DNA from: Candidatus Methanoperedens sp. | Lineage (GTDB): Archaea > Halobacteriota > Methanosarcinia > Methanosarcinales > Methanoperedenaceae | Length of the DNA: 64,000 bases | Reading direction: 5' to 3' | Assembly (NCBI GenBank): GCA_026552955.1 | Contig: JAPMTS010000014.1 | Location: 1 to 64,000 of the forward strand | Shown: in pieces, positions 6,400-20,455 of the stretch | How positions within the stretch are numbered: the first letter of the stretch is position 1 | Layout of the letters: the number at the start of each line of letters is the position of its first letter | The notes under the pieces: generated by a model | The model's database searches: none | The model's input: the letters and a program-made list of their open reading frames with translations, nothing else | What the model was told of the DNA's origin: nothing | Position numbers and translations under genes: made by a program

Positions 6400-8567
6400 T
6401 TTTTATTATTTCTCCAATCGTATAATATATATCCAATACAACTGATTAAAACGATCATGGAAATTAGTATTCCAACCTCAAACCAATCCTGGGGTTTATA
6501 TCTTATTACAATGTCAAGATTTCCCGTCTCGCTAATCCAAAACCCATTAATAACTGAGTTTAAAGGGACTGGATCGATCACTTCCATCTTTTTACCATTT
6601 TTATATACTGTCGCCTTCCACAACTTATCGTATGTTTCAGAAAATGATAACAAGAACGGCTTTGATGTATGTACGTTCACTTTCCATAATGTGGGTTTTA
6701 TTTTAGTATAATTTGTTATTTGAGTATCCCCTTTATGTTCTGCCAATATAATTTTAGTGATAATGTCTTTATTTTTTATTTGTTCCATATCTGATACATT
6801 AATTAGTCCATTGGTTGGGGACGCATACTTGAAGATGTCTTCCGTTAAACTGATATTATGGCGCGCATCTATCATATTTGAAGGTTTATTTTTAATTTCG
6901 AATAAGAACCAATTATCCTTATTATAAATTATATCCGATTGTGCTTTCATATCTTTTAACGTAGTATTGTCCATCGAATACCCCCTGTCATTATGGAATA
7001 CTATATATTTTACACTTATAGATAATAAAAAGTTATAATATTCTTTTTTCTTGAACATTTTTAATTTATAAGGTAAATCAAATAAATAATAATTTATAAA
7101 ATTATAATTTGTCGCCGTGTTAAATGTTGGCTTTCTTGAAGATTTCATATCAAAGGCTGCTATTTTATGTCCTTCACTCCAATTTGTTGCTATTTCGTTA
7201 TATCTCGGATACCACATGACTTTGTATGTATCATTTTTTCCCTCTAAAATCTCATTAATTTTAAAGAATTGATCTGGAATATTAATAGGTTTTAAGGAGT
7301 TCATATTGGCGTCTATTATACCATAAGAAGATACACCTAAAAAAATCAAGATCAATAAAATCAAAGGATATTGGCTATGGGATATGTTATTATACTTTTT
7401 CAAAAAAATTGACACGCTTACAATAAAAAGTGATATTAAAAAGAACGATTGATAAAGCTGGAATTTTAAGGGCGATCTTATTATGAATCCAATTGGTGTG
7501 GATGAGACAAAATACCAGTATAATTCTCCTATGGGTGATTGTGTTCCAAGAGATAATAATGATGTAAATAAGTACCCCATACTTACAAATAATATTAATT
7601 TTCTTATAAATACTGGCAGCGATCGAAAACCAATTAAATAAATAGAGAATGATATAGCCAGCAGGACGCCCAGAGACAAAATGTGTATTATGTTATGAGG
7701 CTCATCAGTTGGAAAAGTATTTACATAAATGAACCTGTCTCTTTCTAAAGATAAAATTTTATATATAGTATTATTTGAAACAGTTTCAAATGTTTTTCTT
7801 TCCAGATTTGAGGAGTGACCTATATCAACACTGGATACACCAATGTACAAATATGGGATCATATACCATAAAAACAATAAACTAAACAATATAGTTATAA
7901 AAAAATATTTTTTTATCACAGACCATATATTTGAATTAATGACAAATATTGAGAATAAGAATGATATTACCATATTTATAACAAAAACAAATGGATGCCC
8001 CAGGGAGAATAAAAGACATATCGAGAATAATAATATAAATTTAATATTATTGTCTTCCTGGTATCTTAATATGAGAAACAAAAGCAAAGGGAGAATCCCC
8101 AGGGAAAAGAGTAATGAAATTCCCCCGGAAAACTGTAATGAGACCGGATTATAAGCAAAAAGGAGTGAGGCAATCAAGGCAACATTTCTGTTTCCAACTC
8201 CTGAAATTTTAAAAATCTCGCAGATAAAAATGAAAAATGAAATACTGATAAATGTATAGGTGACAAGGATCATTAATTTTAATATTATGTCGATTTCTAT
8301 TCCAAAATATGCTAAAAGTATAAATGGAAACCTTATAAATAATCTTAAACTCTGTTCAATATTTGACTGGGATGCAAGGTCGTTCCACATGTAAGAAGAG
8401 TAAGTTATAAAATTCTCGTTAAATAAAGGAAAATTGAAATCTCTTTGAATAATTGTTCCATTTGGAGCAATAATACCAAATAAAAATATAATATTTATGA
8501 TTATCAGGCAAATAATATGCTTATATTTTCTTGCAAATTTTCTTATATCTATCATATATTTATTCAT
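6396..8567 (-). CDS. Large GT-C-like / YfhO-like membrane protein
   Basis: The 723-residue protein has about twelve to thirteen membrane segments in the first 420 residues, an external domain and one last helix near the C-terminus. IIQRDFNFPLF after the first helix holds the acidic loop typical of GT-C folds. SPLKFQLYQSFFL is the segment before the external domain. The architecture resembles AftD-like arabinosyltransferases and YfhO-type proteins that add sugars outside the membrane. The exact family is uncertain. It overlaps the upstream pyruvyl transferase in ATGAATAA and the downstream gene in ATGA, so it sits in a tightly coupled operon. The DNA is clearly richer in A+T than the housekeeping genes. 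Confidence 0.65.
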   Translation of the reverse strand: MNKYMIDIRKFARKYKHIICLIIINIIFLFGIIAPNGTIIQRDFNFPLFNENFITYSSYMWNDLASQSNIEQSLRLFIRFPFILLAYFGIEIDIILKLMILVTYTFISISFFIFICEIFKISGVGNRNVALIASLLFAYNPVSLQFSGGISLLFSLGILPLLLFLILRYQEDNNIKFILLFSICLLFSLGHPFVFVINMVISFLFSIFVINSNIWSVIKKYFFITILFSLLFLWYMIPYLYIGVSSVDIGHSSNLERKTFETVSNNTIYKILSLERDRFIYVNTFPTDEPHNIIHILSLGVLLAISFSIYLIGFRSLPVFIRKLILFVSMGYLFTSLLSLGTQSPIGELYWYFVSSTPIGFIIRSPLKFQLYQSFFLISLFIVSVSIFLKKYNNISHSQYPLILLILIFLGVSSYGIIDANMNSLKPINIPDQFFKINEILEGKNDTYKVMWYPRYNEIATNWSEGHKIAAFDMKSSRKPTFNTATNYNFINYYLFDLPYKLKMFKKKEYYNFLLSISVKYIVFHNDRGYSMDNTTLKDMKAQSDIIYNKDNWFLFEIKNKPSNMIDARHNISLTEDIFKYASPTNGLINVSDMEQIKNKDIITKIILAEHKGDTQITNYTKIKPTLWKVNVHTSKPFLLSFSETYDKLWKATVYKNGKKMEVIDPVPLNSVINGFWISETGNLDIVIRYKPQDWFEVGILISMIVLISCIGYILYDWRNNKK

Positions 8568-9648
8568 AAATATTTGTTACAATGTTATCTTCTAAAAATT
8601 TTAGCAGGTATTTTTCATCGAGATTATCCAAAGTTACCACATTTTGAAGGTTTACATCTTTAATAAAATTCAAGACCTTATTTTCATATGGTATTGCCAG
8701 AAGGGTTATGTTATTGACAAAAGCAAAAATTATGGAATGGAATCTCATTCCAATGAAAATATTTACAGATCTGGTAAGAAGAAACCAAATAATCGGATTA
8801 TTTCGCGATATCACAGTTATATTTTCTTTAAAATCAACCTTCTTTATAATTTCATCAGTCAGCAATTCATCATTTTCTATATCTGAGTTCGTTCCTGCGA
8901 ACGGAAAAAATGCAAAATGAATCCTAGGATTGTATTTGGTATTGGCAATATTAATAAATTTTGAGGTGATGTCGATCAGTTCTCTAGTTTTATCCAAATT
9001 TTTTAACGGTTTTATGGATAATCCTATAATATATTTATCTTGATCCTTGATATGACTAAGAATATTATACTCCGGCGTCTCTTTTAGTAAACTTTCATAT
9101 TTTTGGCCAAGTTCCTGTTTTGAGAGAAATGCGGGCAATTCCAGAGCTAAATCGTTGTCAATGTTTACCTTTTTGTTCAAACTCCAAATATTTTTAAATG
9201 ATTCCTCATCCCTGACACTGCATTGATCAACGAAAAAGAAACTTAAATTGACCAATATTTTTTCAATTCCTGGCGCTGTATTATATAAACCTACACTTTT
9301 AACTATGACTTCTTTTCCAAGGATTTTTGATATTATTAAGAAGAAGGGTATCAACTTAGCGAGTTTTCCCGTATATCCGCTCCAGATCCCTCCCCCTCCT
9401 ACAATAACTTTATCCGAACGGATTAGACAATTTAGCAGTTCTTTAATATCATATACATTGAAACTTTTCAAGGAACGGGATATATCTGCATGATAAATAT
9501 CAATAAATTCCGGATTACGGACAGGTATAGATATTTTTGCCTGATCGTCTTTTTCTAATAAACCCAATACAATGACTTTTAAGAGTGTCTCGTCTCCGAT
9601 ATTGTAATTTCCGTAGTTTCCTATCAGTAAAATGTTTTTATTTTTCAT
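8560..9648 (-). CDS. Polysaccharide pyruvyl transferase family protein
   Basis: The protein has 362 residues. The N-terminus (ILLIGNYGNYNIGDETLL) is the signature start of the CsaB/polysaccharide pyruvyl transferase family. GGGGIWSGYTG near residue 80 and GMRFHSIIFAF near residue 300 are further conserved blocks. Members transfer pyruvate from phosphoenolpyruvate to sugars of surface polymers. Pyruvylated glycans bind S-layer and other wall proteins in bacteria; in this organism the target is inferred only. The start codon overlaps the stop of the deacetylase gene (ATGA). Confidence 0.85.
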   Translation of the reverse strand: MKNKNILLIGNYGNYNIGDETLLKVIVLGLLEKDDQAKISIPVRNPEFIDIYHADISRSLKSFNVYDIKELLNCLIRSDKVIVGGGGIWSGYTGKLAKLIPFFLIISKILGKEVIVKSVGLYNTAPGIEKILVNLSFFFVDQCSVRDEESFKNIWSLNKKVNIDNDLALELPAFLSKQELGQKYESLLKETPEYNILSHIKDQDKYIIGLSIKPLKNLDKTRELIDITSKFINIANTKYNPRIHFAFFPFAGTNSDIENDELLTDEIIKKVDFKENITVISRNNPIIWFLLTRSVNIFIGMRFHSIIFAFVNNITLLAIPYENKVLNFIKDVNLQNVVTLDNLDEKYLLKFLEDNIVTNIYE

Positions 9649-10478
9649 TGTGGATATAGTTTTTCCTTATATGCATCATGTCCATCTTTTATAGTTCGCA
9701 CCGTAATATTGCCATCATTCATTATTTTAAGAATTTCTTTAAAATTTTTACTACTTAATTCAAAATTACTTTGTGTAACATTATCTACAATTTTATGAAA
9801 ATGGAAATCAAGCCATACTGGTTGCTTTTGGTAATTTGCATTTGATAATATTGATTTCAATTCTAGAGGAGAGTATACCCTATCCGAGAGACCTATACTT
9901 TTTATCTTAAGGTCTGATATATTATTGGTGTTTATACATTGTTTCTCTATTTGATCATATGATAATCCTTTTCGATATATGAAAACACTATTTTCATCAT
10001 TGAAACAGGTCGCTCTTCCAATATTATAATATTTTTTCGCAATCCTGGCAACCGTATCATTTATCTTGCCGGATGGATATATGTATGTGTCAACACTAAT
10101 ATTAAGTTTTTCAAAAATTTTTTTCGATTCCCTTAGCTCATATTCTATTTGTTCTTCATCTATTTTTGACATATCTTTATGAAGCATGCTATGCGATGCT
10201 ATTTCCCACCCACTGGATTTGAATCGATTAATATCATCAATCGTTAATGTATAGTTCTGATTGACATTAAGTGTTCCAACTATTATTCCTATTGTACCAT
10301 TATAGCCATATTTTTGCATCTCGTTGAGTGCCATGATATGAGTTTTGAAATTATCATCAAATGAGAAACTTATAATCGCATTGTCTTTTTGAATAGCTTC
10401 TCTTTCTGATTTTTGAATTTGCACCAATACTGAAGTTATTATAAGTCCAAAAATTAAATAGGGGTAAACTTTATTCAT
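9645..10478 (-). CDS. Membrane-anchored polysaccharide deacetylase (NodB domain)
   Basis: The 277-residue protein begins with a hydrophobic helix (VYPYLIFGLIITSVLV) that would act as signal or anchor. The NodB domain follows: SFDDNF near residue 40 carries the catalytic/metal aspartates, EIASHSMLH near residue 93 the two metal-binding histidines, and YIYPSGK near residue 133 the third motif. The enzyme removes N- or O-acetyl groups from a surface glycan. The later motifs of the family are weaker, so substrate cannot be stated. It is coupled to the pyruvyl transferase gene downstream. Confidence 0.8.
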   Translation of the reverse strand: MNKVYPYLIFGLIITSVLVQIQKSEREAIQKDNAIISFSFDDNFKTHIMALNEMQKYGYNGTIGIIVGTLNVNQNYTLTIDDINRFKSSGWEIASHSMLHKDMSKIDEEQIEYELRESKKIFEKLNISVDTYIYPSGKINDTVARIAKKYYNIGRATCFNDENSVFIYRKGLSYDQIEKQCINTNNISDLKIKSIGLSDRVYSPLELKSILSNANYQKQPVWLDFHFHKIVDNVTQSNFELSSKNFKEILKIMNDGNITVRTIKDGHDAYKEKLYPQ

Positions 10479-10520
10479 ATTCTGTCCTTATTTTATGGAA
10501 CTGCCACCCCCACCTCTCAA

Positions 10521-11603
10521 TCACCCATTATGAAAAAATCGGATCGCCTTCAAAAACTCCTCCGCGCTCCTGTCCCAGTTGAACTCTCCAGCCGATGCCA
10601 GCGCATTTCTGGAAAGCTTCTCCCGAAGATCATTATTTTGCAGGAGCTCAAATGCTCTTTGTGCCATTGCGTCCGGATTATTATCGCAAAGCATTCCTGT
10701 ATCCCCTATCGAATCCCTCAATCCATGAACATTATATCCGATAGCCGGCGTTCCCATAGCATTAGCTTCAGTAACGATCAATCCCCATCCTTCCCTGATT
10801 CCCGGAACAAGTATAGCCCAGGCTCTGCTCATTAATTTTAATTTCTTATCGCTGCTTACTCTTCCAAAAAACTCTACGCCCTCACAATCAATCTTCTCCA
10901 GTTCATTCCTGTAATAACCCTCTCCAACGACCCATAATTTCGCACTGGGTACTTTTCCTTTTATTGTTTTGAAGGCCTTAATAGCATGATGGGGCAATTT
11001 TGCTTTTTTCAATCTGCCAACAAATATAAATGTAGGATCTGTTTCTTTCTCGCCAACTTTCTCCAGAGGCTTGAAATTTATTCCTTCTGGAACAATAGAT
11101 ACTTTCCTGAATCCTAAATCCAACAGATCTTTCTTCGTTGATTCAGAAACTGTTATTGTAGGAATATCTATGTATTTCTTTAGCCACCGATCCTCAAAGA
11201 AATAACGTCCCAGATAATTTATTGGAAATTTTGTCTCATAGAACCAGAACTCTCTGGCAAGTTGATGAATCAATACAATCACTTTCTCCCCGTTATTTAC
11301 AAACTCCGGAGTAAAAAACGGTACTGTATTGATTTCATCGATAATAACATCAAAATCTTGTTTAGAAAAATATTTCTTATAATATTCTTTGGCTTTCAGA
11401 TAGACCGTATATTTTCCACCATCCCTGATTATTCTTATTCCATCGACAAATTCTTCTTTATTACAGCCCGGGTATGATGATGTAAACCACGTGATTTTGT
11501 GTCCTTTTTCTATCCATCTTTTTGCATTTTCATGAGTAAATACTTCGGCGCCTCCAGCATCCGGATTTTTTATATCTCTCCAGTTATAAATAAGGATGTT
11601 CAT
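10521..11603 (-). CDS. GT4-family glycosyltransferase
   Basis: The 360-residue enzyme has a GT-B fold. The N-terminal nucleotide-fold domain includes NPDAGGAEVFTHENAKRW, the loop that contacts the acceptor and donor phosphate. The C-terminal donor domain includes FIFVGRLKKAKLPHHAI, and the E-x7-E element reads REGWGLIVTEANAMGTP. The ATG at 11603 follows GTGGA and is preferred to an upstream frame extension. Cytoplasmic, it would add a nucleotide-activated sugar to the growing lipid-linked glycan exported by the flippase at 11697. Confidence 0.88.
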   Translation of the reverse strand: MNILIYNWRDIKNPDAGGAEVFTHENAKRWIEKGHKITWFTSSYPGCNKEEFVDGIRIIRDGGKYTVYLKAKEYYKKYFSKQDFDVIIDEINTVPFFTPEFVNNGEKVIVLIHQLAREFWFYETKFPINYLGRYFFEDRWLKKYIDIPTITVSESTKKDLLDLGFRKVSIVPEGINFKPLEKVGEKETDPTFIFVGRLKKAKLPHHAIKAFKTIKGKVPSAKLWVVGEGYYRNELEKIDCEGVEFFGRVSSDKKLKLMSRAWAILVPGIREGWGLIVTEANAMGTPAIGYNVHGLRDSIGDTGMLCDNNPDAMAQRAFELLQNNDLREKLSRNALASAGEFNWDRSAEEFLKAIRFFHNG

Positions 11604-11696
11604 AATTTCCACACTTCATTTATATAAATATTTTACTTTCTTCGGTTTTATTAAATCCCGGCAATCATTATAATGATAATGCAAATTATTCCCCCA

Positions 11697-12995
11697 TCAT
11701 ATAAATAATATCGCATATTTCAACCCGGCAAAATTTGATTTAGAAATTTTTCGTTTAAAAGTATACACGATACTCAAGACCAGGAATACCAGATTAGCAA
11801 TGAGCAACACATCAACCATGCCAGACATTGACGAATTAAATATTACCAGCAATATAACCTCAATTATTGTAAATCCTGTGAAAAAGGCAATGTACCTCAT
11901 ATTTCTAATGGCCAGGTGATAACTCATTACAATAGCAGTAATTGAGACAAAGAACATGGCCACCCCATAGGGGGCTACTAAATCTATGGCATCAAAATAT
12001 TTTTCCCCGAATATTTCCACAACTATCCGCGGGTATAACACAAATATCGATACCAGGCCTCCAGATAAGGCCCCTGCGCATACCAGGCTCTTCGTTAATA
12101 TTCCCCTTGTATCTTCTCCTTTTGTAAATTTCTCAGTTATCATAGGAAACATGACCGTACCCACTGCCCCGGAGAAGAAGAACACTATTTTCCCCAGGAC
12201 TGATACTGATGTATATATCCCGGCCTCAGAAGGGGAAAAGAAATATTTTGCCAATATTACATCCAGATTAGACGGAATGGAAAGGCTGATCATAGCAAAC
12301 ATCACAGGCAAAGAATAAGAATAAAACGATGAATACGACAAGTCGGGTTCATGGGGATTATTCGGCCTGATATGTGGTTTTAGAAAGGCAAAAGATATGA
12401 AAAGACCCAGGATCGCACCCATTGCTACTCCGAATAACGCACCACTTACCCCGAATCCGGCAATCACAAGACCAACTCCAAAGATCAGTTTAAATGATGC
12501 ATTGGATATGCTGGAAAATGCAAGACCAGAAAATATTTTCAATCCCCTCAGGGAACCGTCAATTATTGGGATAATCCACGAAAGGGAAAGTATCAGTATG
12601 AGGATCAGTATTGGCTGGACATCAGGTAATTTAAGTAAGTTCATCAGGTCATTTCTAAAAACCAGGAAGATAATAGATACTGCAGTCCCGGACAGGATTG
12701 TCAGTTTCAACATACCTTTTATAAAGAAACCAATCTGTTTACCTTCTCCAACAAACCTGGAGACGAACTGTGTTGTACTGGTACCTAATGTCTGTGAAAT
12801 AATCCCTATCATGTAAAAGATTGCAAAAAGAGCACCAAAAACACCATACTCTTCGGGTCCAAGGGCTCTTCCTATATAGACCTGGTAACTATAATTGAGA
12901 ATGCCAACGATGGTGCCAGATACGAACATGATTGTCCCCTTTTTGACAAGTTCGTCGTTTTTCAGGTATCTGGCTGCTTTTTGTATTCGATCCAT
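11697..12995 (-). CDS. Flippase of the polysaccharide/oligosaccharide exporter family (Wzx-like)
   Basis: This 432-residue polytopic protein has about twelve hydrophobic segments. The start GTIMFVSGTIVGILNYSYQVYIGRALGPEEYGVFG carries the conserved family pattern of a helix followed by LGPEEYG (seen here around residues 35-55). It belongs to the MOP superfamily and would flip lipid-linked glycans outward. It sits between GT4 and GT2 genes. This is the usual place for a flippase in a glycan cluster. Confidence 0.88.
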   Translation of the reverse strand: MDRIQKAARYLKNDELVKKGTIMFVSGTIVGILNYSYQVYIGRALGPEEYGVFGALFAIFYMIGIISQTLGTSTTQFVSRFVGEGKQIGFFIKGMLKLTILSGTAVSIIFLVFRNDLMNLLKLPDVQPILILILILSLSWIIPIIDGSLRGLKIFSGLAFSSISNASFKLIFGVGLVIAGFGVSGALFGVAMGAILGLFISFAFLKPHIRPNNPHEPDLSYSSFYSYSLPVMFAMISLSIPSNLDVILAKYFFSPSEAGIYTSVSVLGKIVFFFSGAVGTVMFPMITEKFTKGEDTRGILTKSLVCAGALSGGLVSIFVLYPRIVVEIFGEKYFDAIDLVAPYGVAMFFVSITAIVMSYHLAIRNMRYIAFFTGFTIIEVILLVIFNSSMSGMVDVLLIANLVFLVLSIVYTFKRKISKSNFAGLKYAILFI

Positions 12996-13021
12996 TCTAG
13001 ATTATTTTGATAATGCCAGTA

Positions 13022-13837
13022 TCAGCATGTTTCTGAAGATGTCGTTTCAACATATTTCTTCTTTTCATGTTTGAGGGTTGCTATTTTGTTCTTGTTCATC
13101 ACTAACTTATCATCATAATAATGGATGACCTTCATCCTATAAAAAATAGCGCATGTATCCCAGAACATATGCCAGATAGCTTTCTTATTAATATGGCTCT
13201 TGAAGTTCATGTTGATCTCAACCGGAGCATCTCTTATCTTATATCCCAATCTATATGCATTTGCCAATATCTCAATATCAAAAGCATATTTCTTGACCAC
13301 AACCATTGGACATATATCTTCCAGGACTTTTCTTTTGTATAATTTCAACCCAACCTGGGTATCTTTTACCTGGATTCCAAATAATATCTTTACGAACCGA
13401 TAATAAATTTCGCTAAATATTTTCCTGTTGATGGGATAATTTATTTTTGAATCAGGATGTCTCTTCGATCCTACAACAACATCTGCAGCAGTCCTTTCCA
13501 TTTCTTTGATAAATGCCAATATCTGTCTTGGGTGGATATTCATATCTGCATCTATGAATACCACAAAGGTACCTTTTGTATGCTTGAATCCGTATCTTAA
13601 GGCAAATCCCTTTCCACGATTACACCCATAATTCACTATTCTTACATTATTATTTCCTCTGGCAAATTCCTGCACCTTTTCATAAGTCCCATCAAGACTG
13701 CCATCATCCACAATTATTATCTCATGGTCTATTCCGGTTAAGGAAATTTCACATTCTTTAATGGTATCAAGAATTATTTCATTCTCATTATATGCTGGAA
13801 TTACAACAGATACACTCTTCAATGTCTTATTTATCAT
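13022..13837 (-). CDS. GT2-family glycosyltransferase (dolichyl-phosphate sugar synthase type)
   Basis: The 271-residue protein has a GT-A domain: VVIPAYNENEIILDTI at the start, then IIVDDGSLDGTYE with the first nucleotide-binding aspartates, and FVVFIDADMNIHPRQI with the DxD-type metal site. This order, and GCNRGKGFALRYG, match Alg5/DPM1-like enzymes that load a sugar onto dolichyl phosphate. No membrane segments follow. The ATG at 13837 is preferred because AAAGGT lies 10 bases upstream. Its product would serve the membrane GT-C-like proteins downstream in the operon. Confidence 0.88.
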   Translation of the reverse strand: MINKTLKSVSVVIPAYNENEIILDTIKECEISLTGIDHEIIIVDDGSLDGTYEKVQEFARGNNNVRIVNYGCNRGKGFALRYGFKHTKGTFVVFIDADMNIHPRQILAFIKEMERTAADVVVGSKRHPDSKINYPINRKIFSEIYYRFVKILFGIQVKDTQVGLKLYKRKVLEDICPMVVVKKYAFDIEILANAYRLGYKIRDAPVEINMNFKSHINKKAIWHMFWDTCAIFYRMKVIHYYDDKLVMNKNKIATLKHEKKKYVETTSSETC

Positions 13838-13887
13838 TAATAACACAACCTTTATTTAATTAATTGATTTTTCAACCTGGTAGCATT

Positions 13888-14856
13888 CTACAAATCTATT
13901 TCACCGTTCGATGCCCGTTTCATGAGAACCAGATCGCCAGCATCTGCAGATATTCCATTGGTGTTCAAATCATATGTTGAATCAGAAGTGATTTCACCTG
14001 TTGACGCCTGCTCCATAAGATCCAGATCATCGGAATCTGCTGATATGCCATTTCCATTCAGGTCACCTCTATGGATGGGGACCGGAGACTTTGGTCTTAT
14101 ATAAAATTTTTTGGTTGTTATCGTTTCGATCCTGACCTTTCCTGAAGAAGGATCTTTGTTTGAATATTCTGCGGTTACATCATATTTTCCAGGAACTACC
14201 TGATTTCCTTTACTATCTTTCTGATCCCATGTTCTTTCAATGGTTTTCAGGAACTTGAGGGGTTCAAAAGAATCTGCACATCCGCTATATCCATAGGTAC
14301 AATCCTGCGATGGCCTGAACACGACTTTCCCTGTATCCCGATTTCTTATCTTCCAATTATTAACATTTACATAGATTGTATAGGTGCCCATATTTGTGAA
14401 GGCAATATCTATTTCTTCCCCATATTTGTAGAATTTACTACCCGTATACAAAATCGGTTTATTCTGCCTTTTTCCCCTCAAGAAATCAAATGAAATTGCT
14501 CTCAGATTTCTCTTATCATCTCCCTGATAGATCTTCTGTGTATAGTTACCCTCGGGGACACCATCAATATCATATTTGAATGCGTACGATACGCCAGGAT
14601 CGATTTTCAATAATTCTGCTGAAGATTTCTCTTGGGAGGTATATACACTTTTTCCCTTTTCATCTGATACTGTCAGGGAATTGAGTATATAAGTTGGTTT
14701 ATCTCCAATATTCTTTACTTCGAATCTCACACTATCATCTTGCTGATCCATGCTTACATCCACTTTTGCAGATGTCATAGCGGGGAACAGCATTAGTGCA
14801 AGTGCTAACAGGACTAATATCCACGTTTTTGCATTTGATCTGACTTCATTTTTCAT
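13888..14856 (-). CDS. Secreted protein with C-terminal dockerin domain
   Basis: This 322-residue protein has a signal peptide (about residues 10-30, ending PAMTSA). The middle region is beta-rich and begins KVDVSMDQQDDSVRFEVKN, similar to cell-adhesion-related Ig-like folds. The last 60 residues hold two calcium-loop repeats, DLNGNGISADSDDLDLM and DLNTNGISADAGDLVLMKR, typical of a type I dockerin. Dockerins bind cohesin domains. A cohesin protein is encoded divergently at 15561, so the two probably pair at the cell surface. There is no sorting tail or anchor of its own, so attachment through a cohesin is plausible. Confidence 0.8.
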   Translation of the reverse strand: MKNEVRSNAKTWILVLLALALMLFPAMTSAKVDVSMDQQDDSVRFEVKNIGDKPTYILNSLTVSDEKGKSVYTSQEKSSAELLKIDPGVSYAFKYDIDGVPEGNYTQKIYQGDDKRNLRAISFDFLRGKRQNKPILYTGSKFYKYGEEIDIAFTNMGTYTIYVNVNNWKIRNRDTGKVVFRPSQDCTYGYSGCADSFEPLKFLKTIERTWDQKDSKGNQVVPGKYDVTAEYSNKDPSSGKVRIETITTKKFYIRPKSPVPIHRGDLNGNGISADSDDLDLMEQASTGEITSDSTYDLNTNGISADAGDLVLMKRASNGEIDL

Positions 14857-14914
14857 ATATTATCCGCCCTTTTATATTATAATTTTTGCAAATATAATGG
14901 TATTTACGCCTGAT

Positions 14915-15244
14915 TTACCGTTTTTTTCTGATGTTGACAATCGCAGTAGTCAGAATTACCAAAGAAATTAGTGAGGTCACCGTACCTGTTAATCCAAATC
15001 CGGGGGAAGACTTCTTTTGATCTTCTTTTATTATTGATTCGATTACAGTTGTCTCGTTCGAATTTTCCGTTATGTTTATAACATTTGTAGTTTCACTAAT
15101 TTCAATTGCATCTTCTGTGCCGACGGGATTGGCTATTGTCTCATTTATAGAGAAATTTCCGTCCGTGTCGGATGCCAGTGCGTGTCCTAATGTGGTCATT
15201 GAAAATATCGCTAAGATCAATAACGCCATATTCTTTTTCTTCAT
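14915..15244 (-). CDS. Small secreted protein with PGF-CTERM sorting signal
   Basis: The 109-residue protein has a signal peptide (MALLILAIFSMTTLGHALA), a short acidic Asn/Thr-rich stretch that could be glycosylated (several NxT/S sites), and a tail. The tail reads PGFGLTGTVTSLISLVIL followed by IRKKR. A PGF motif, hydrophobic helix and basic end is the archaeosortase substrate signal known as PGF-CTERM. The processed protein would be only about 60 residues, perhaps a surface anchor or spacer. It is the first gene of the minus-strand surface run. Archaeosortase itself is not in the window. Confidence 0.8.
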   Translation of the reverse strand: MKKKNMALLILAIFSMTTLGHALASDTDGNFSINETIANPVGTEDAIEISETTNVINITENSNETTVIESIIKEDQKKSSPGFGLTGTVTSLISLVILTTAIVNIRKKR

Positions 15245-15560
15245 CTCAACTTCTCTCTTCTAATTTCATCCTAAGACTTACCTAACATCTGCGGTATATT
15301 TAAAGATTATCATAAGTATTGTTATTATCATAGAATAAAAAGGAACATGTCAACTGTATTCATATATTATGATTGATAACATAGATAAAAAAATAATAAT
15401 CATAAATAAAATACCAGCATAATTATATACTTCCAGAGGTATATTCTCCCAATGGGAGAATTAAGGATGCTATTAATACCTTAAGAAACATTTTCGTATT
15501 TCCGGGGTATTAATCAAGCGTGCTTTAATTCGTGAAAAAATTGTGTGAGGAGATTGTAAA
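15245..15560. promoter_or_regulatory. Divergent promoter region between PGF-CTERM and cohesin genes
   Basis: This 316-base A+T-rich stretch separates two divergent surface genes. It holds an 8-bp inverted repeat, ATTCTCCC (15443-15450) and GGGAGAAT (15454-15461). TTAAGG (15461-15466) pairs with CCTTAA (15479-15484) immediately after it. Both lie about 80-120 bases before the cohesin start and could be operator or 5'-UTR structures. No further gene was found. Confidence 0.45.
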
Positions 15561-17498
15561 ATGAAAAGAAATATGAAAAGAATTAGAGAATTAGCAATAG
15601 CTCTGGCAGCGTTAATTCTACTTGCATCGTCTATAAGTGCACAGCCTATGGCAATTGATTTTGGTGTGAATGATACTTCAGGATATCCAGGCACATTTGT
15701 TAAAGTCCCTGTGAATATAACAAATGTACAGAATGAATCTATTGCAGGTATCATATTTGATATTAGCTTCAATTCGAGTGTCATTAATTTGACCATGGAT
15801 CATGTGCAAAAAGGAGATTTGACTTCTGCATGGGATTCTCCCCGGTTCAATCCGGATAACGGTCGAATATCTATTCACCTTTCAAACAACGGGACGGAAA
15901 TTTCAAAAGGTAAAACCGGCTCAGTAGTTATACTTAATTTCAGTGTGGTTGGTATTCCGGGGGCAAAGAGTGCAATGAATATCAGTAGAATACAACTGAG
16001 TGATCTATCAGGAGCTATAGGAACAGCTTCAGCCAGGAATGGCACCTTTACTATAGAGGGGCAGCAAGGTGCCATCTCAGGTATGAAATTCAATGACTCA
16101 AATGGTGATGGGACAAAAGATCTTGAAGACATCGGAATTGCCAACTGGACTATCGTGCTTAAAAATAGCACAGGTTCTCTAGTAAGGACAATAACCACGG
16201 ATTTGAATGGCAATTATAGCTTCAATGGACTTACAGCAGGCAATTACTCTGTGGAAGAAGTCCTTCATGCGGATTGGAAGCAAACATTCCCGGAAGCGCC
16301 TGGAATTTATAATGTGACTCTTGCGGCAGGAGAAAACGTCACTTATAGGGACTTTGGCAATTTTATGAATGATACACCTGCAGAACCACCGGGAAAACCC
16401 CTTATCACAAACTTCACTCCGGAAATATCGAATGTGACTGATATCATAGGGGGCCCGACAAGAACCTTTACAATACATGTTAATCAGACTGTTAATGTAT
16501 CATGGCAGATAGACGGAAAGGAAGTATCCAACCAGACAAGTGTAAATGTATCCTCATATTCTAATGACAGTGCAGCTGCAGGGATATGGAATATATCTGC
16601 TTTAGCCCGGAATGCTAACGGCAGCGACATGCAAACGTGGATATGGAACGTAGAACAGCAAATACCGGGCAGTATATCCGGAATGAAGTTCAATGACTCA
16701 AATGCCAATGGAATAAAAGATCAGGGGGAATCCGGCCTTTTGAATTGGACCATCTTGTTGAAAAACAGCACAGGATATATATTGGATAGTATGATTACGG
16801 ACATCGGAGGCAATTATACATTCGCTGGTCTGGCCGCCGGGAATTACACTGTGGAAGAAGTTCTTCAGGCAGGGTGGAACCAGACATTCCCTGAAGCGCC
16901 AGGAATTTACAATGTGACTCTGGCAGCTGGGGAAAGTGTAAAGGACAGGGACTTTGGCAATATTCTGTTACCCGAAATGCCAACCGGAGTAACTGTTACT
17001 CGTGAGATTGAGAAAGAGTCACTCCGCTTTGGCGAATCTACAAATATTACAATCAGGATAAATAGCGATGTAACTCAAGCATTAGTCCTTCAAGAATCAA
17101 TCCCCCCGGGATGGAATTTAGGGAGGATTTCAGATGATGCCCAGGGTTTCAAGAATAGCTCCAATGAATGGGTCTGGTCCAATGTCACGCCGGGAGCAAC
17201 TATAACAGTTATCTATCAGCTCACCAATTCTACAGGTGCCAATATCGGAACGTATTATATCAACGGGACAATAGGGAACCCGGATGGGATAATTGCAAAT
17301 GTAAGTGGAGATAACATGATCACACTTGGCATAAATGAATATTACGCAAGACTTGGAAGCGATCCCGATAGGTTAGAGACCAGGGACCTGTTAAAAGCTA
17401 TGGATGACTGGAGAAGCGGGAAAGTACCTGTTGGATTTGCACGTCCAATAACAATCAACGAACTTTCTGCTTTAATCGATGAATGGACAAGGACATAA
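15561..17498 (+). CDS. Secreted cohesin and SdrD-B-repeat surface protein
   Basis: This 645-residue protein has a signal peptide ending near SSISAQP. Residues about 32-160 form a cohesin domain (GVNDTSGYPGTFVKVPVNI ... GIIFDISFNSSVINL). SdrD-B-like Ca-binding repeats follow at about 172-270 and 370-470, both starting ISGMKFNDSN and sharing FPEAPGIYNVTLAAGE. An Ig-like stretch lies between them. Another beta domain follows, and the C-terminus (ETRDLLKAMDDWRSGKVPVGF) is a compact helical module of unknown role. The two repeats are duplicated at DNA level (16079-16370, 16675-16970). Many NxS/T sites suggest glycosylation. Divergent from the dockerin gene run, it is the likely binding partner. 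Confidence 0.85.
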   Translation: MKRNMKRIRELAIALAALILLASSISAQPMAIDFGVNDTSGYPGTFVKVPVNITNVQNESIAGIIFDISFNSSVINLTMDHVQKGDLTSAWDSPRFNPDNGRISIHLSNNGTEISKGKTGSVVILNFSVVGIPGAKSAMNISRIQLSDLSGAIGTASARNGTFTIEGQQGAISGMKFNDSNGDGTKDLEDIGIANWTIVLKNSTGSLVRTITTDLNGNYSFNGLTAGNYSVEEVLHADWKQTFPEAPGIYNVTLAAGENVTYRDFGNFMNDTPAEPPGKPLITNFTPEISNVTDIIGGPTRTFTIHVNQTVNVSWQIDGKEVSNQTSVNVSSYSNDSAAAGIWNISALARNANGSDMQTWIWNVEQQIPGSISGMKFNDSNANGIKDQGESGLLNWTILLKNSTGYILDSMITDIGGNYTFAGLAAGNYTVEEVLQAGWNQTFPEAPGIYNVTLAAGESVKDRDFGNILLPEMPTGVTVTREIEKESLRFGESTNITIRINSDVTQALVLQESIPPGWNLGRISDDAQGFKNSSNEWVWSNVTPGATITVIYQLTNSTGANIGTYYINGTIGNPDGIIANVSGDNMITLGINEYYARLGSDPDRLETRDLLKAMDDWRSGKVPVGFARPITINELSALIDEWTRT

Positions 17499-17790: not shown

Positions 17791-18986
17791 CCCGCTTTTA
17801 CCATCGAACCTATTTTCTGTCCCAGGGCATAACATTTCTCCAGATCTTTCTCATCCGGCCTGAAATTTACTTCTATCGACTCTCCAGGCTCATATCCGCC
17901 CGATTTTAATTTCTCATTTACTGCTTTGACCGCCCCGCCAGCCCAGCCATAGGAACCAAAGGTCGCCCAGAGCTTGTTCTTTGGGTGAAGCCCCATAAGA
18001 TACGTCAAGAATCCCCCTACTGTTGGGAACATGCCATTATTCAAAGTAGGTGAGCCTATAAGAACCGCTTTTGACTCGAGAACTTCTTTGACTATTTCAC
18101 TCCAATCAGTCTTTCTCAGGTGAAATAGGGCTACCTCAACACCTGAGTCCGAAGCTCCTCTTAAGATCTCATCGGCCATCGTTTGGGTACTGTTCCACAT
18201 GGTATCATAAATTACAAGCACTTTCGGCTTTGACTCACCTTTTGCCCATTTCAGGTATGCTTCGATGATCTTTATGGGATTTGTCCAAATCATGCCATGA
18301 GAAGGAGCGATCATCTTAATCTCGATGCCAAGTTTCTGAACCTCCTCGATCTTTTTGAGGATTATTCCGCCAAAGGGCATGAGGATATTAGCATAATATT
18401 TCGCCGCCTCTTCCATCACGGTATCACAATCATACCCGGTGAGACTGCAAACATCCTCATCAAAACGGAATGAAGATGCAAGGTGCTGGCCGAAACCATC
18501 ATTTGAAAGAAGTATCTTGTCCTCTTTTATGTATGTGAACATATTGTCCGGCCAGTGAAGCATCGACGCATTCATGAAGAAAAGTGTCTTCTTGCCGATT
18601 TTCAATTCGTCCCCGGTTTTGACCGTCCTGAAATTCCATGTACCCCTAAAATGCCTGATCAGCCCTTCCTTTCCTTTTTCGGTACATAGTACCTGGGCAT
18701 TCGGAACAATTCTCATGATAGCAGGAAGAGAACCTGAATGGTCCATTTCACCATGGTTTGAAATCACATAATCGATTTTTTCAGGATCTATTATCTCCCT
18801 TATCCTGTTTAGCATCTCACCCGAAAAACCATGTTTTACGGTATCCACAAGTGCAATCTTTTCATCAACGATAAGATATGCGTTGTATGTCGCTCCCCTC
18901 AACGTGGTGTATCCATGAAAATCCCGAAGGTTCCAGTCCACAGCCCCCACCCAGTAAACTCCTGCTGCAAGTTCGATTTTTGTCAT
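17787..18986 (-). CDS. fprA: Flavodiiron protein, FprA (F420H2 oxidase) type
   Basis: This 399-residue protein has an N-terminal metallo-beta-lactamase-like diiron domain with SNHGEMDHSGSLP (the HxExDH iron ligands) near residue 80. A flavodoxin domain follows, with the FMN loop VIYDTMWNSTQTMA near residue 255 and GSYGWAGGAVKAV near residue 350. In methanogens FprA reduces O2 to water with F420H2. Presence of cofC supports F420 as donor. It is divergent from a multiheme cytochrome and close to rubredoxin, so an oxygen-detoxification group is likely. Confidence 0.94.
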   Translation of the reverse strand: MTKIELAAGVYWVGAVDWNLRDFHGYTTLRGATYNAYLIVDEKIALVDTVKHGFSGEMLNRIREIIDPEKIDYVISNHGEMDHSGSLPAIMRIVPNAQVLCTEKGKEGLIRHFRGTWNFRTVKTGDELKIGKKTLFFMNASMLHWPDNMFTYIKEDKILLSNDGFGQHLASSFRFDEDVCSLTGYDCDTVMEEAAKYYANILMPFGGIILKKIEEVQKLGIEIKMIAPSHGMIWTNPIKIIEAYLKWAKGESKPKVLVIYDTMWNSTQTMADEILRGASDSGVEVALFHLRKTDWSEIVKEVLESKAVLIGSPTLNNGMFPTVGGFLTYLMGLHPKNKLWATFGSYGWAGGAVKAVNEKLKSGGYEPGESIEVNFRPDEKDLEKCYALGQKIGSMVKAG

Positions 18987-19084
18987 TTATATTATCCTGC
19001 AAATCACAATGTTCCTATGATATCTCACCAATACCTATATACCTCATAGAAATAATAATTTTCGGTAGGATAGGAGGATTTGAA

Positions 19085-20455
19085 ATGTTCAAGTTGAAGA
19101 GCATTGCTCTAGGGATAATTGGATTATCTCTTTTACTGACGCTTCCAGGTATGTTTATCAATCAATCGGAGCCTGATGATTATTTGCAGCCGGAGGTATG
19201 TTCCGAATGTCACGCTGATATCTATGAACAATGGAACGGCTCCATGCATTCGAATTCGCATAAGGACCCGGTTTATGAAAAACTTTTTATAATGGCCAGC
19301 AGGGAAACGAATAGCTCATTTGATGCTTTTTGCTCAAAATGTCATATACCGATCGATTTCCTTACGGGAAACATACCTTCAGCGGATAACTATAAAGTAA
19401 GTGAGATATCAGAAAAGGGAATAAGCTGTGATTTCTGCCATACGGTTAATGCTACAAACGGCAACGGTGGTTTCATATCTTCACCCGGTAGTATAAAAAG
19501 AGGACCTCTGGAGGATTCGAATTATTCTACATTTCATGGAACCACGTATTCTGAACTTCATACAAAATCAGAGTTCTGTGGAATGTGCCATAATGTGAAC
19601 CATCCCTTCAATGGATTAATTCTTGAAAATACATATACGGAATGGAAAGAAGGAGAATATAATGAAACTACGACCTGCCAGGACTGCCACATGACTCCGG
19701 GTGTGACCGGGTACAAGGCAAATCCAGGCAGAGCATCACCAGGAGCGCCAATGAGGGATAATATATACACTCATTATTTCGTGGGAGGCAACTCAATGCT
19801 TCCAGGATTATTAGGTTCACCCAAGCATGAGCGGCTTGCAAAAGAACGATTGCAGGCGGCAGCCATGGTTGAGATCATAAGATTGGAAAGAACTAATGAT
19901 AACAAGACCATGAATCTTACGATAAAAGTCACAAATATCGGGGCTGGCCACAAGATCCCCACAGGCCTGACAGAAGCAAGACTAATATGGCTTGAAGTCG
20001 ATGCAAAAGATTTATCCGGTAAAACGATTTTCGGGTCAGGTCGGATCGATAAGGACGGATATATCGACCCTGGAGCAGTAAAATATCATACGATTTTCGG
20101 GGATTCAGATAATAAGCCCACTGAGAAAGTATGGATGGCGGAGAAAATACTTATGGATAACAGGATACCGCCAAAGGGATATTCAATAGAAAACTATTCT
20201 TTTGATATTCCCACTGATCTGAAAGGCCCGCTGAATGTTGATGTCAGGCTAAATTATGTCAGTGCTTCACAGGAACTTTCGGATTTGCTGTTCGGAAAAG
20301 GCGAAATCAAGCCACCAGTAGTAGAAATGGCATCGGTAAGTGCGAAAATAGAAGTTACGCCGTATGTTCCGATCAAGAAAACACCAGGGTTTACATCTGT
20401 CTTCTTATTGATGGCAATCCTTATCTTATATGCACGAATAAAAAGTATTAAATAA
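19085..20455 (+). CDS. Pentaheme c-type cytochrome with PGF-like C-terminal anchor
   Basis: The ATG at 19085 follows AGGAGG (19072-19077); the frame extends further upstream but without support. The protein has 456 residues. A signal helix covers about residues 5-22. Five CxxCH heme sites follow at about residues 39, 83, 115, 165 and 198 (CSECH, CSKCH, CDFCH, CGMCH, CQDCH). The fold resembles the cytochrome c554-like group. The last third is a beta-rich domain without hemes. The tail reads TPGFTSVFLLMAILILYARI and then a basic end, resembling a PGF-CTERM signal. It probably carries electrons outside the membrane, and rubredoxin follows 15 bases later. Confidence 0.9.
   Translation: MFKLKSIALGIIGLSLLLTLPGMFINQSEPDDYLQPEVCSECHADIYEQWNGSMHSNSHKDPVYEKLFIMASRETNSSFDAFCSKCHIPIDFLTGNIPSADNYKVSEISEKGISCDFCHTVNATNGNGGFISSPGSIKRGPLEDSNYSTFHGTTYSELHTKSEFCGMCHNVNHPFNGLILENTYTEWKEGEYNETTTCQDCHMTPGVTGYKANPGRASPGAPMRDNIYTHYFVGGNSMLPGLLGSPKHERLAKERLQAAAMVEIIRLERTNDNKTMNLTIKVTNIGAGHKIPTGLTEARLIWLEVDAKDLSGKTIFGSGRIDKDGYIDPGAVKYHTIFGDSDNKPTEKVWMAEKILMDNRIPPKGYSIENYSFDIPTDLKGPLNVDVRLNYVSASQELSDLLFGKGEIKPPVVEMASVSAKIEVTPYVPIKKTPGFTSVFLLMAILILYARIKSIK

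Follow-up and report, generated by a model that had tools for sequence, protein, structure and literature searches.

The window analysed here, the first 64 kb of a 215,858-base contig from a 'Candidatus Methanoperedens' genome (2.48 Mb, 95% complete), carries two genes for secreted proteins on opposite strands beside a run of surface-glycan genes. A sequence-only reading of this stretch had taken one of the two proteins to end in a dockerin and the other to begin with a cohesin, and had proposed that the pair is tied to glycan synthesis and assembles itself into an extracellular matrix. We therefore asked whether the two modules are a genuine cohesin and dockerin, whether they are matched to each other, and what such a pair might do in this organism.

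The two proteins and their genomic setting

The cohesin half is straightforward. P0002 (15561..17498, + strand) is a secreted protein of 645 amino acids in which a signal peptide is followed by a cohesin domain, an SdrD_B repeat, a linker domain, another SdrD_B repeat and a C-terminal beta-sandwich with a helix pair. Pfam Cohesin (PF00963) matches residues 36-130 (E 1.3e-10; 42.1 bits against a cut-off of 24.1), and the domain, which spans 15648..16058 on the + strand (Pfam core 15666-15950), is also identified by its relatives and its position in a tree. Pfam recognises both SdrD_B repeats (E 2.4e-30), bearing out the description of a cohesin followed by SdrD-B repeats. P0002 has no second cohesin, and it contains 39 N-x-S/T sequons compared with 10.0 +/- 2.7 in shuffled sequences. 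No Pfam family covers its C-terminal module (residues 478-645; 16992..17495, + strand), which recurs in five further proteins of the genome and elsewhere in the genus and may be a surface-attachment domain. Those five proteins, all secreted, were named by eye as kelch-like, sugar-dehydrogenase-like, protease-like, a CxxCH protein and EB_dh-like. The helix pair was also considered as a degenerate dockerin and rejected: its model is confident, but the sequence has no calcium-loop residues, and a fold search returned only generic beta-sandwiches (TM at most about 0.5).

The dockerin half required more work. P0001 (13888..14856, - strand), a secreted protein of 322 amino acids, consists of a signal peptide, an Ig-like beta region with sub-threshold domain matches only, and a 61-residue C-terminal module (residues 262-322; 13891..14073, - strand) composed of two loop-helix repeats with the calcium loops GDLNGNGISADSDDL and YDLNTNGISADAGDL. 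Pfam Dockerin_1 (PF00404) gives no match in P0001 at permissive thresholds, short of its curated cut-off, and NCBIfam gives none to the module; the profile search that had been suggested for both halves thus succeeded for the cohesin and failed for the dockerin. A Pfam dockerin search of the whole genome likewise found none, and searching the genome with the module itself identified it as the sole copy of its kind. AlphaFold2, given nine aligned rows, produced a model with pLDDT 95.5, pTM 0.81 and helices at 14-24 and 45-55, while the set of five included two poor models (mean pLDDT near 50). When this model was compared to the PDB with Foldseek, the best 22 matches were all dockerin or cohesin-dockerin entries (TM 0.62-0.82), the first 20 at probabilities of 0.97-1.00, with E-values of only 0.01-0.9 because a query of 61 residues is short. 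A dockerin profile searched against PDB sequences yielded three matches, two of them dockerins, at E-values (0.3-0.5) that are not significant alone. Together, AlphaFold2 and Foldseek recover the duplicated calcium-loop and helix fold of the dockerin superfamily, and homologues of the module lie within or beside a cohesin gene at the loci examined. Judged by predicted fold, cohesin context and loop comparison, the module is a divergent dockerin, in line with the original assignment of two dockerin calcium loops to the end of this protein.

Immediately beyond the P0001 gene lies a glycan gene block (8560..13846, - strand), in which domain searches confirmed the flippase, pyruvyl transferase, deacetylase and glycosyltransferase neighbours noticed earlier: GT2 (13022-13846), flippase (11697-12995), GT4 (10521-11612), polysaccharide deacetylase (9645-10478) and CsaB-like pyruvyl transferase (8560-9648), all on the - strand. 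P0001 comes second in a gene series that runs from P0003 through P0001 and these five genes in the order given, with gaps of at most 84 bp, and this close spacing makes co-expression of P0001 with glycan synthesis likely. P0002 diverges from P0003 across 316 bp; as the P0001 and P0002 genes lie on different strands, their own co-expression is not implied. P0003 (14915..15244, - strand) is a small secreted protein with a signal peptide, a PGF motif, a C-terminal hydrophobic segment and a basic tail, the last three forming a putative CTERM anchor. Its earlier designation as a PGF-CTERM gene is plausible from the motif, segment and tail; the NCBIfam PGF-CTERM model (TIGR04126) gives no match to P0003 and scores its homologue in a congeneric genome (G004) at 7.5 bits against a cut-off of 24.5. 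Past the cohesin gene and a gene for an FprA-like flavoprotein, the window continues directly with a cytochrome c554-like multihaem protein with five CxxCH motifs (18878-20455) and then a TatC gene.

A thirteen-residue-loop class and its cohesins

Both repeats of the P0001 dockerin fit a 13-residue loop, D-x-[ND]-x-N-G-x-x-A-D-x-x-D, and not the canonical 12-residue form D-x-N-x-D-G-x5-D; the one extra residue per calcium loop is the likely reason that Pfam Dockerin_1 misses the module. The feature is characteristic of a class: in 28 of 30 strong modules both loops have 13 residues, with one inserted residue each, and no ORF among those examined mixes the two lengths. The weak matches of the dockerin profile that were inspected had the 12-residue form. 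The loop residues are kept in P0001, and calcium binding by a 13-residue loop is uncertain. Since InterPro-based counts (IPR016134, PMC5244752) may already cover such modules, we restrict our claim to Pfam: if it is correct, Pfam-based counts miss a class of archaeal dockerins.

Cohesins were present in 97 and canonical, Pfam-positive dockerins in 92 of 150 genomes sampled from the order, and cohesin-dockerin as such is therefore ordinary there. The 13-residue-loop dockerin is strong in only seven of these genomes, the window's included, and at every order locus of this dockerin that was examined a cohesin is encoded by the dockerin gene itself or by a neighbour. Conversely, a search of the order with only the P0002 cohesin placed cohesins from 13-residue-loop dockerin loci in the first nine non-self ranks; the locus of the tenth (in G076) is interrupted by a contig end. 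A P0002-like cohesin occurs in 6 of 6 dockerin genomes of the order compared with 10 of 149 (p 1.5e-8), and the association persists among cohesin-positive genomes (p 2e-7); both values ignore shared ancestry. The pattern is repeated among 393 genomes sampled across the phylum (392 without the window's own): all 15 non-self genomes with a strong match to the dockerin have such a cohesin, compared with 19 of 392 overall (Fisher p 8e-24, again ignoring shared ancestry).

Most of the phylum genomes with a 13-residue-loop dockerin are ANME-1, dominated by one family (f10) that corresponds to Methanophagales (ANME-1), as its loci in G339 and G382 match the records L128 and L129 by sequence identity. 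The best 14 relatives of each half, dockerin and cohesin, are from ANME-1. In the cohesin tree, P0002 groups with the cohesins of 13-residue-loop dockerin loci at a support of 99/99. This clade is separate from the order's remaining cohesins, those of the genus of P0002 included, and also takes in one long-branched other cohesin (from G054). The placement of P0002 inside the clade is supported at 85/38, and the tree does not single out a donor lineage. By these comparisons, 13-residue-loop dockerins and P0002-like cohesins are one matched archaeal class, best developed in ANME-1. Because the P0001 dockerin and the P0002 cohesin both belong to this co-occurring class, they are likely to be mutual partners.

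Two further observations concern the distribution of these modules. An ANME-1 (Methanophagales) locus, L128:4302-12244, is an eight-gene array encoding cohesins, 13-residue-loop dockerins or both, in which proteins of two sorts alternate: short, secreted ones with only a dockerin, and cohesin proteins with a CTERM-like tail. The window's own genome has two further cohesins, of other kinds (G000:C12:21611-21988 and G000:C39:28752-29138), with no 13-residue-loop dockerin near either.

Within the genus, the pair is confined to the window's organism, whose genome is the only one of about 31 sampled to carry the 13-residue-loop dockerin and a cohesin closely related to that of P0002; elsewhere in the genus, a single weak relative of the P0002 cohesin was found (G010, E 7e-7). 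The host proteins are native. The same gene order is present in G004, with identities of 61% for the PGF gene, 56-57% for the P0001 core, 68% for the flippase, 66% for GT2 and 75% for GT4; there the P0001 homologue ends before the dockerin, and no cohesin was detected in the genome. Similarly, the window's genome encodes a second protein that shares 68% identity with residues 273-643 of P0002. Because the genus and the genome itself contain close relatives of the P0001 core and of the C-terminal half of P0002, we rejected contamination as a source of the locus. Both modules thus appear to have been joined to native proteins at one locus, with loss in the relatives still an alternative to gain in the window's organism. 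A congeneric glycan cluster (L028:1193-18973) has homologues of P0003 and P0001 ahead of its flippase, with neither dockerin nor cohesin.

Proposed coupling of P0001 to P0002 and competing explanations

In the reading that we propose, with a probability of about 0.68, P0001 and P0002 each contribute one half of a specific extracellular coupling; the halves are matched by class and were both grafted, at a single locus, onto native proteins. The strongest argument for it is that matching halves have been joined to two native proteins at a single locus, from which we infer that they work together. Sharing a genome does not guarantee that a cohesin and a dockerin interact; for P0001 and P0002 an interaction is likely from their shared class. 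In the proposed mechanism, the 61-residue dockerin of P0001 would dock, extracellularly and probably with calcium, onto the cohesin at the N-terminus of P0002, and would tether the Ig-like protein native to the surface-glycan locus to a stalk protein built of SdrD_B repeats. P0002, rich in predicted N-glycosylation sites, would stand on the cell surface, with its C-terminal module holding it there. The alternating dockerin-only and CTERM-tailed cohesin proteins of the ANME-1 array would follow the same logic of an anchor and a docked partner. The paired set envisaged in the sequence-only reading is upheld insofar as a real cohesin and a divergent dockerin of one co-occurring class are both secreted, with the dockerin gene in the glycan series, while their binding stays a prediction. 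The proposed tie to glycan synthesis holds by location and is weakened by the same gene order in G004, with no dockerin and no cohesin found; a functional coupling to the glycan would go beyond this.

The partners might instead lie elsewhere, on neighbouring ANME-1 or other cells, making the two modules an interspecies adhesion device. Each half has its closest relatives among ANME-1 modules, which renders ANME-1 partners plausible, and adhesion roles for cohesins and dockerins in ANME consortia have already been proposed in the literature. Against this, the halves adjoin in one genome with a single detected dockerin of any kind, which makes the self-pair the simplest partner set, and we regard interspecies adhesion as unlikely. 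We consider it quite improbable that the pair cross-links many copies into a self-assembling matrix with the glycan of the locus. The adjacent glycan genes and the sequon excess of P0002 (39 against an expected 10) fit such a network, and ANME-1 loci of the class encode proteins with two cohesins and a dockerin that could build chains; the window, however, has one cohesin and one dockerin on separate proteins, no multi-cohesin protein of the class was detected in the genome, and the glycan gene order is present in a relative that has no such pair. Neither P0001 nor P0002 has a C-terminal transmembrane segment or CTERM anchor, and with one recognised module per protein the direct prediction is one-to-one tethering, contrary to the matrix first suggested. 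Sporadic presence, in 1 of about 31 genomes of the genus, would be expected of vestigial modules that arrived with transferred DNA and are unused, but both are intact and in frame, each is joined to a native secreted protein at the same locus, and the loop residues are conserved; we hold out very little chance for this explanation.

A broader form of the coupling model is tentative, and we lean against it. The halves of the class would move together between methane-oxidising lineages and be grafted as a matched pair, with the window's organism presumed a recipient; recipients could then dock their own or ANME-1 surface proteins, and adhesion specificity would itself be horizontally transferred.

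Relation to known cohesin-dockerin systems

A cohesin and a dockerin were reportedly described in Archaeoglobus fulgidus by Bayer et al. in 1999, as cited in PMC9012536. Likened by description only, that case resembles ours in placing both modules in an archaeon that has no cellulosome.

The closest counterparts are the ANME cohesin-dockerin proteins, which are likewise archaeal, secreted and non-cellulosomal. In the passages drawn on here, these modules are described as enriched in ANME-1 and ANME-2a, with a possible cell-contact role (Timmers et al., 2017; PMC5244752), and as abundant in the same groups, with a proposed role in adhesion (Chadwick et al., 2022; PMC9012536); the cell clustering raised in the sequence-only reading is accordingly an established proposal for these archaea. 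ANME-2d is reported there as poor in cohesin and dockerin (PMC5244752), and partner prediction for the ANME proteins is called for (PMC9012536). Their expression in consortia has been noted (PMC10553843), and dockerin-like proteins in 'Ca. Methanoperedens' have been mentioned (PMC12246660). The same passages of PMC5244752 and PMC9012536 count domains, with no definition of a class by loop insertion or of a cohesin clade that matches it; we found no description of the class, the clade or a grafted pair in the open-access texts consulted. The kind of system is known; the 13-residue-loop variant, with its matched cohesin clade and grafted pair, appears on this basis to be new. If this holds, cohesin partners would be recognisable by their distinct clade, and ANME partner prediction would become testable pair by pair.

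The canonical 12-residue dockerins of Methanosarcinales occur in the same order, and often in the same genomes, as the 13-residue class, and differ from it in that the two loop types are never combined in an examined ORF. With the type I pairs of cellulosomes (PDB 1ohz, 2ccl, 4fl4), the window pair shares two loop-helix repeats (TM 0.70-0.80) and a PF00963 cohesin. In contrast to those, the P0001 loops have 13 residues instead of 12 and fall below Pfam Dockerin_1 detection. The pair has a single cohesin, no scaffoldin and no cellulase, and Pfam detected no glycoside hydrolase domain in either protein; it is not a cellulosome. A genome with a single such pair may offer a simple system for learning what cohesin-dockerin pairs do outside cellulosomes.
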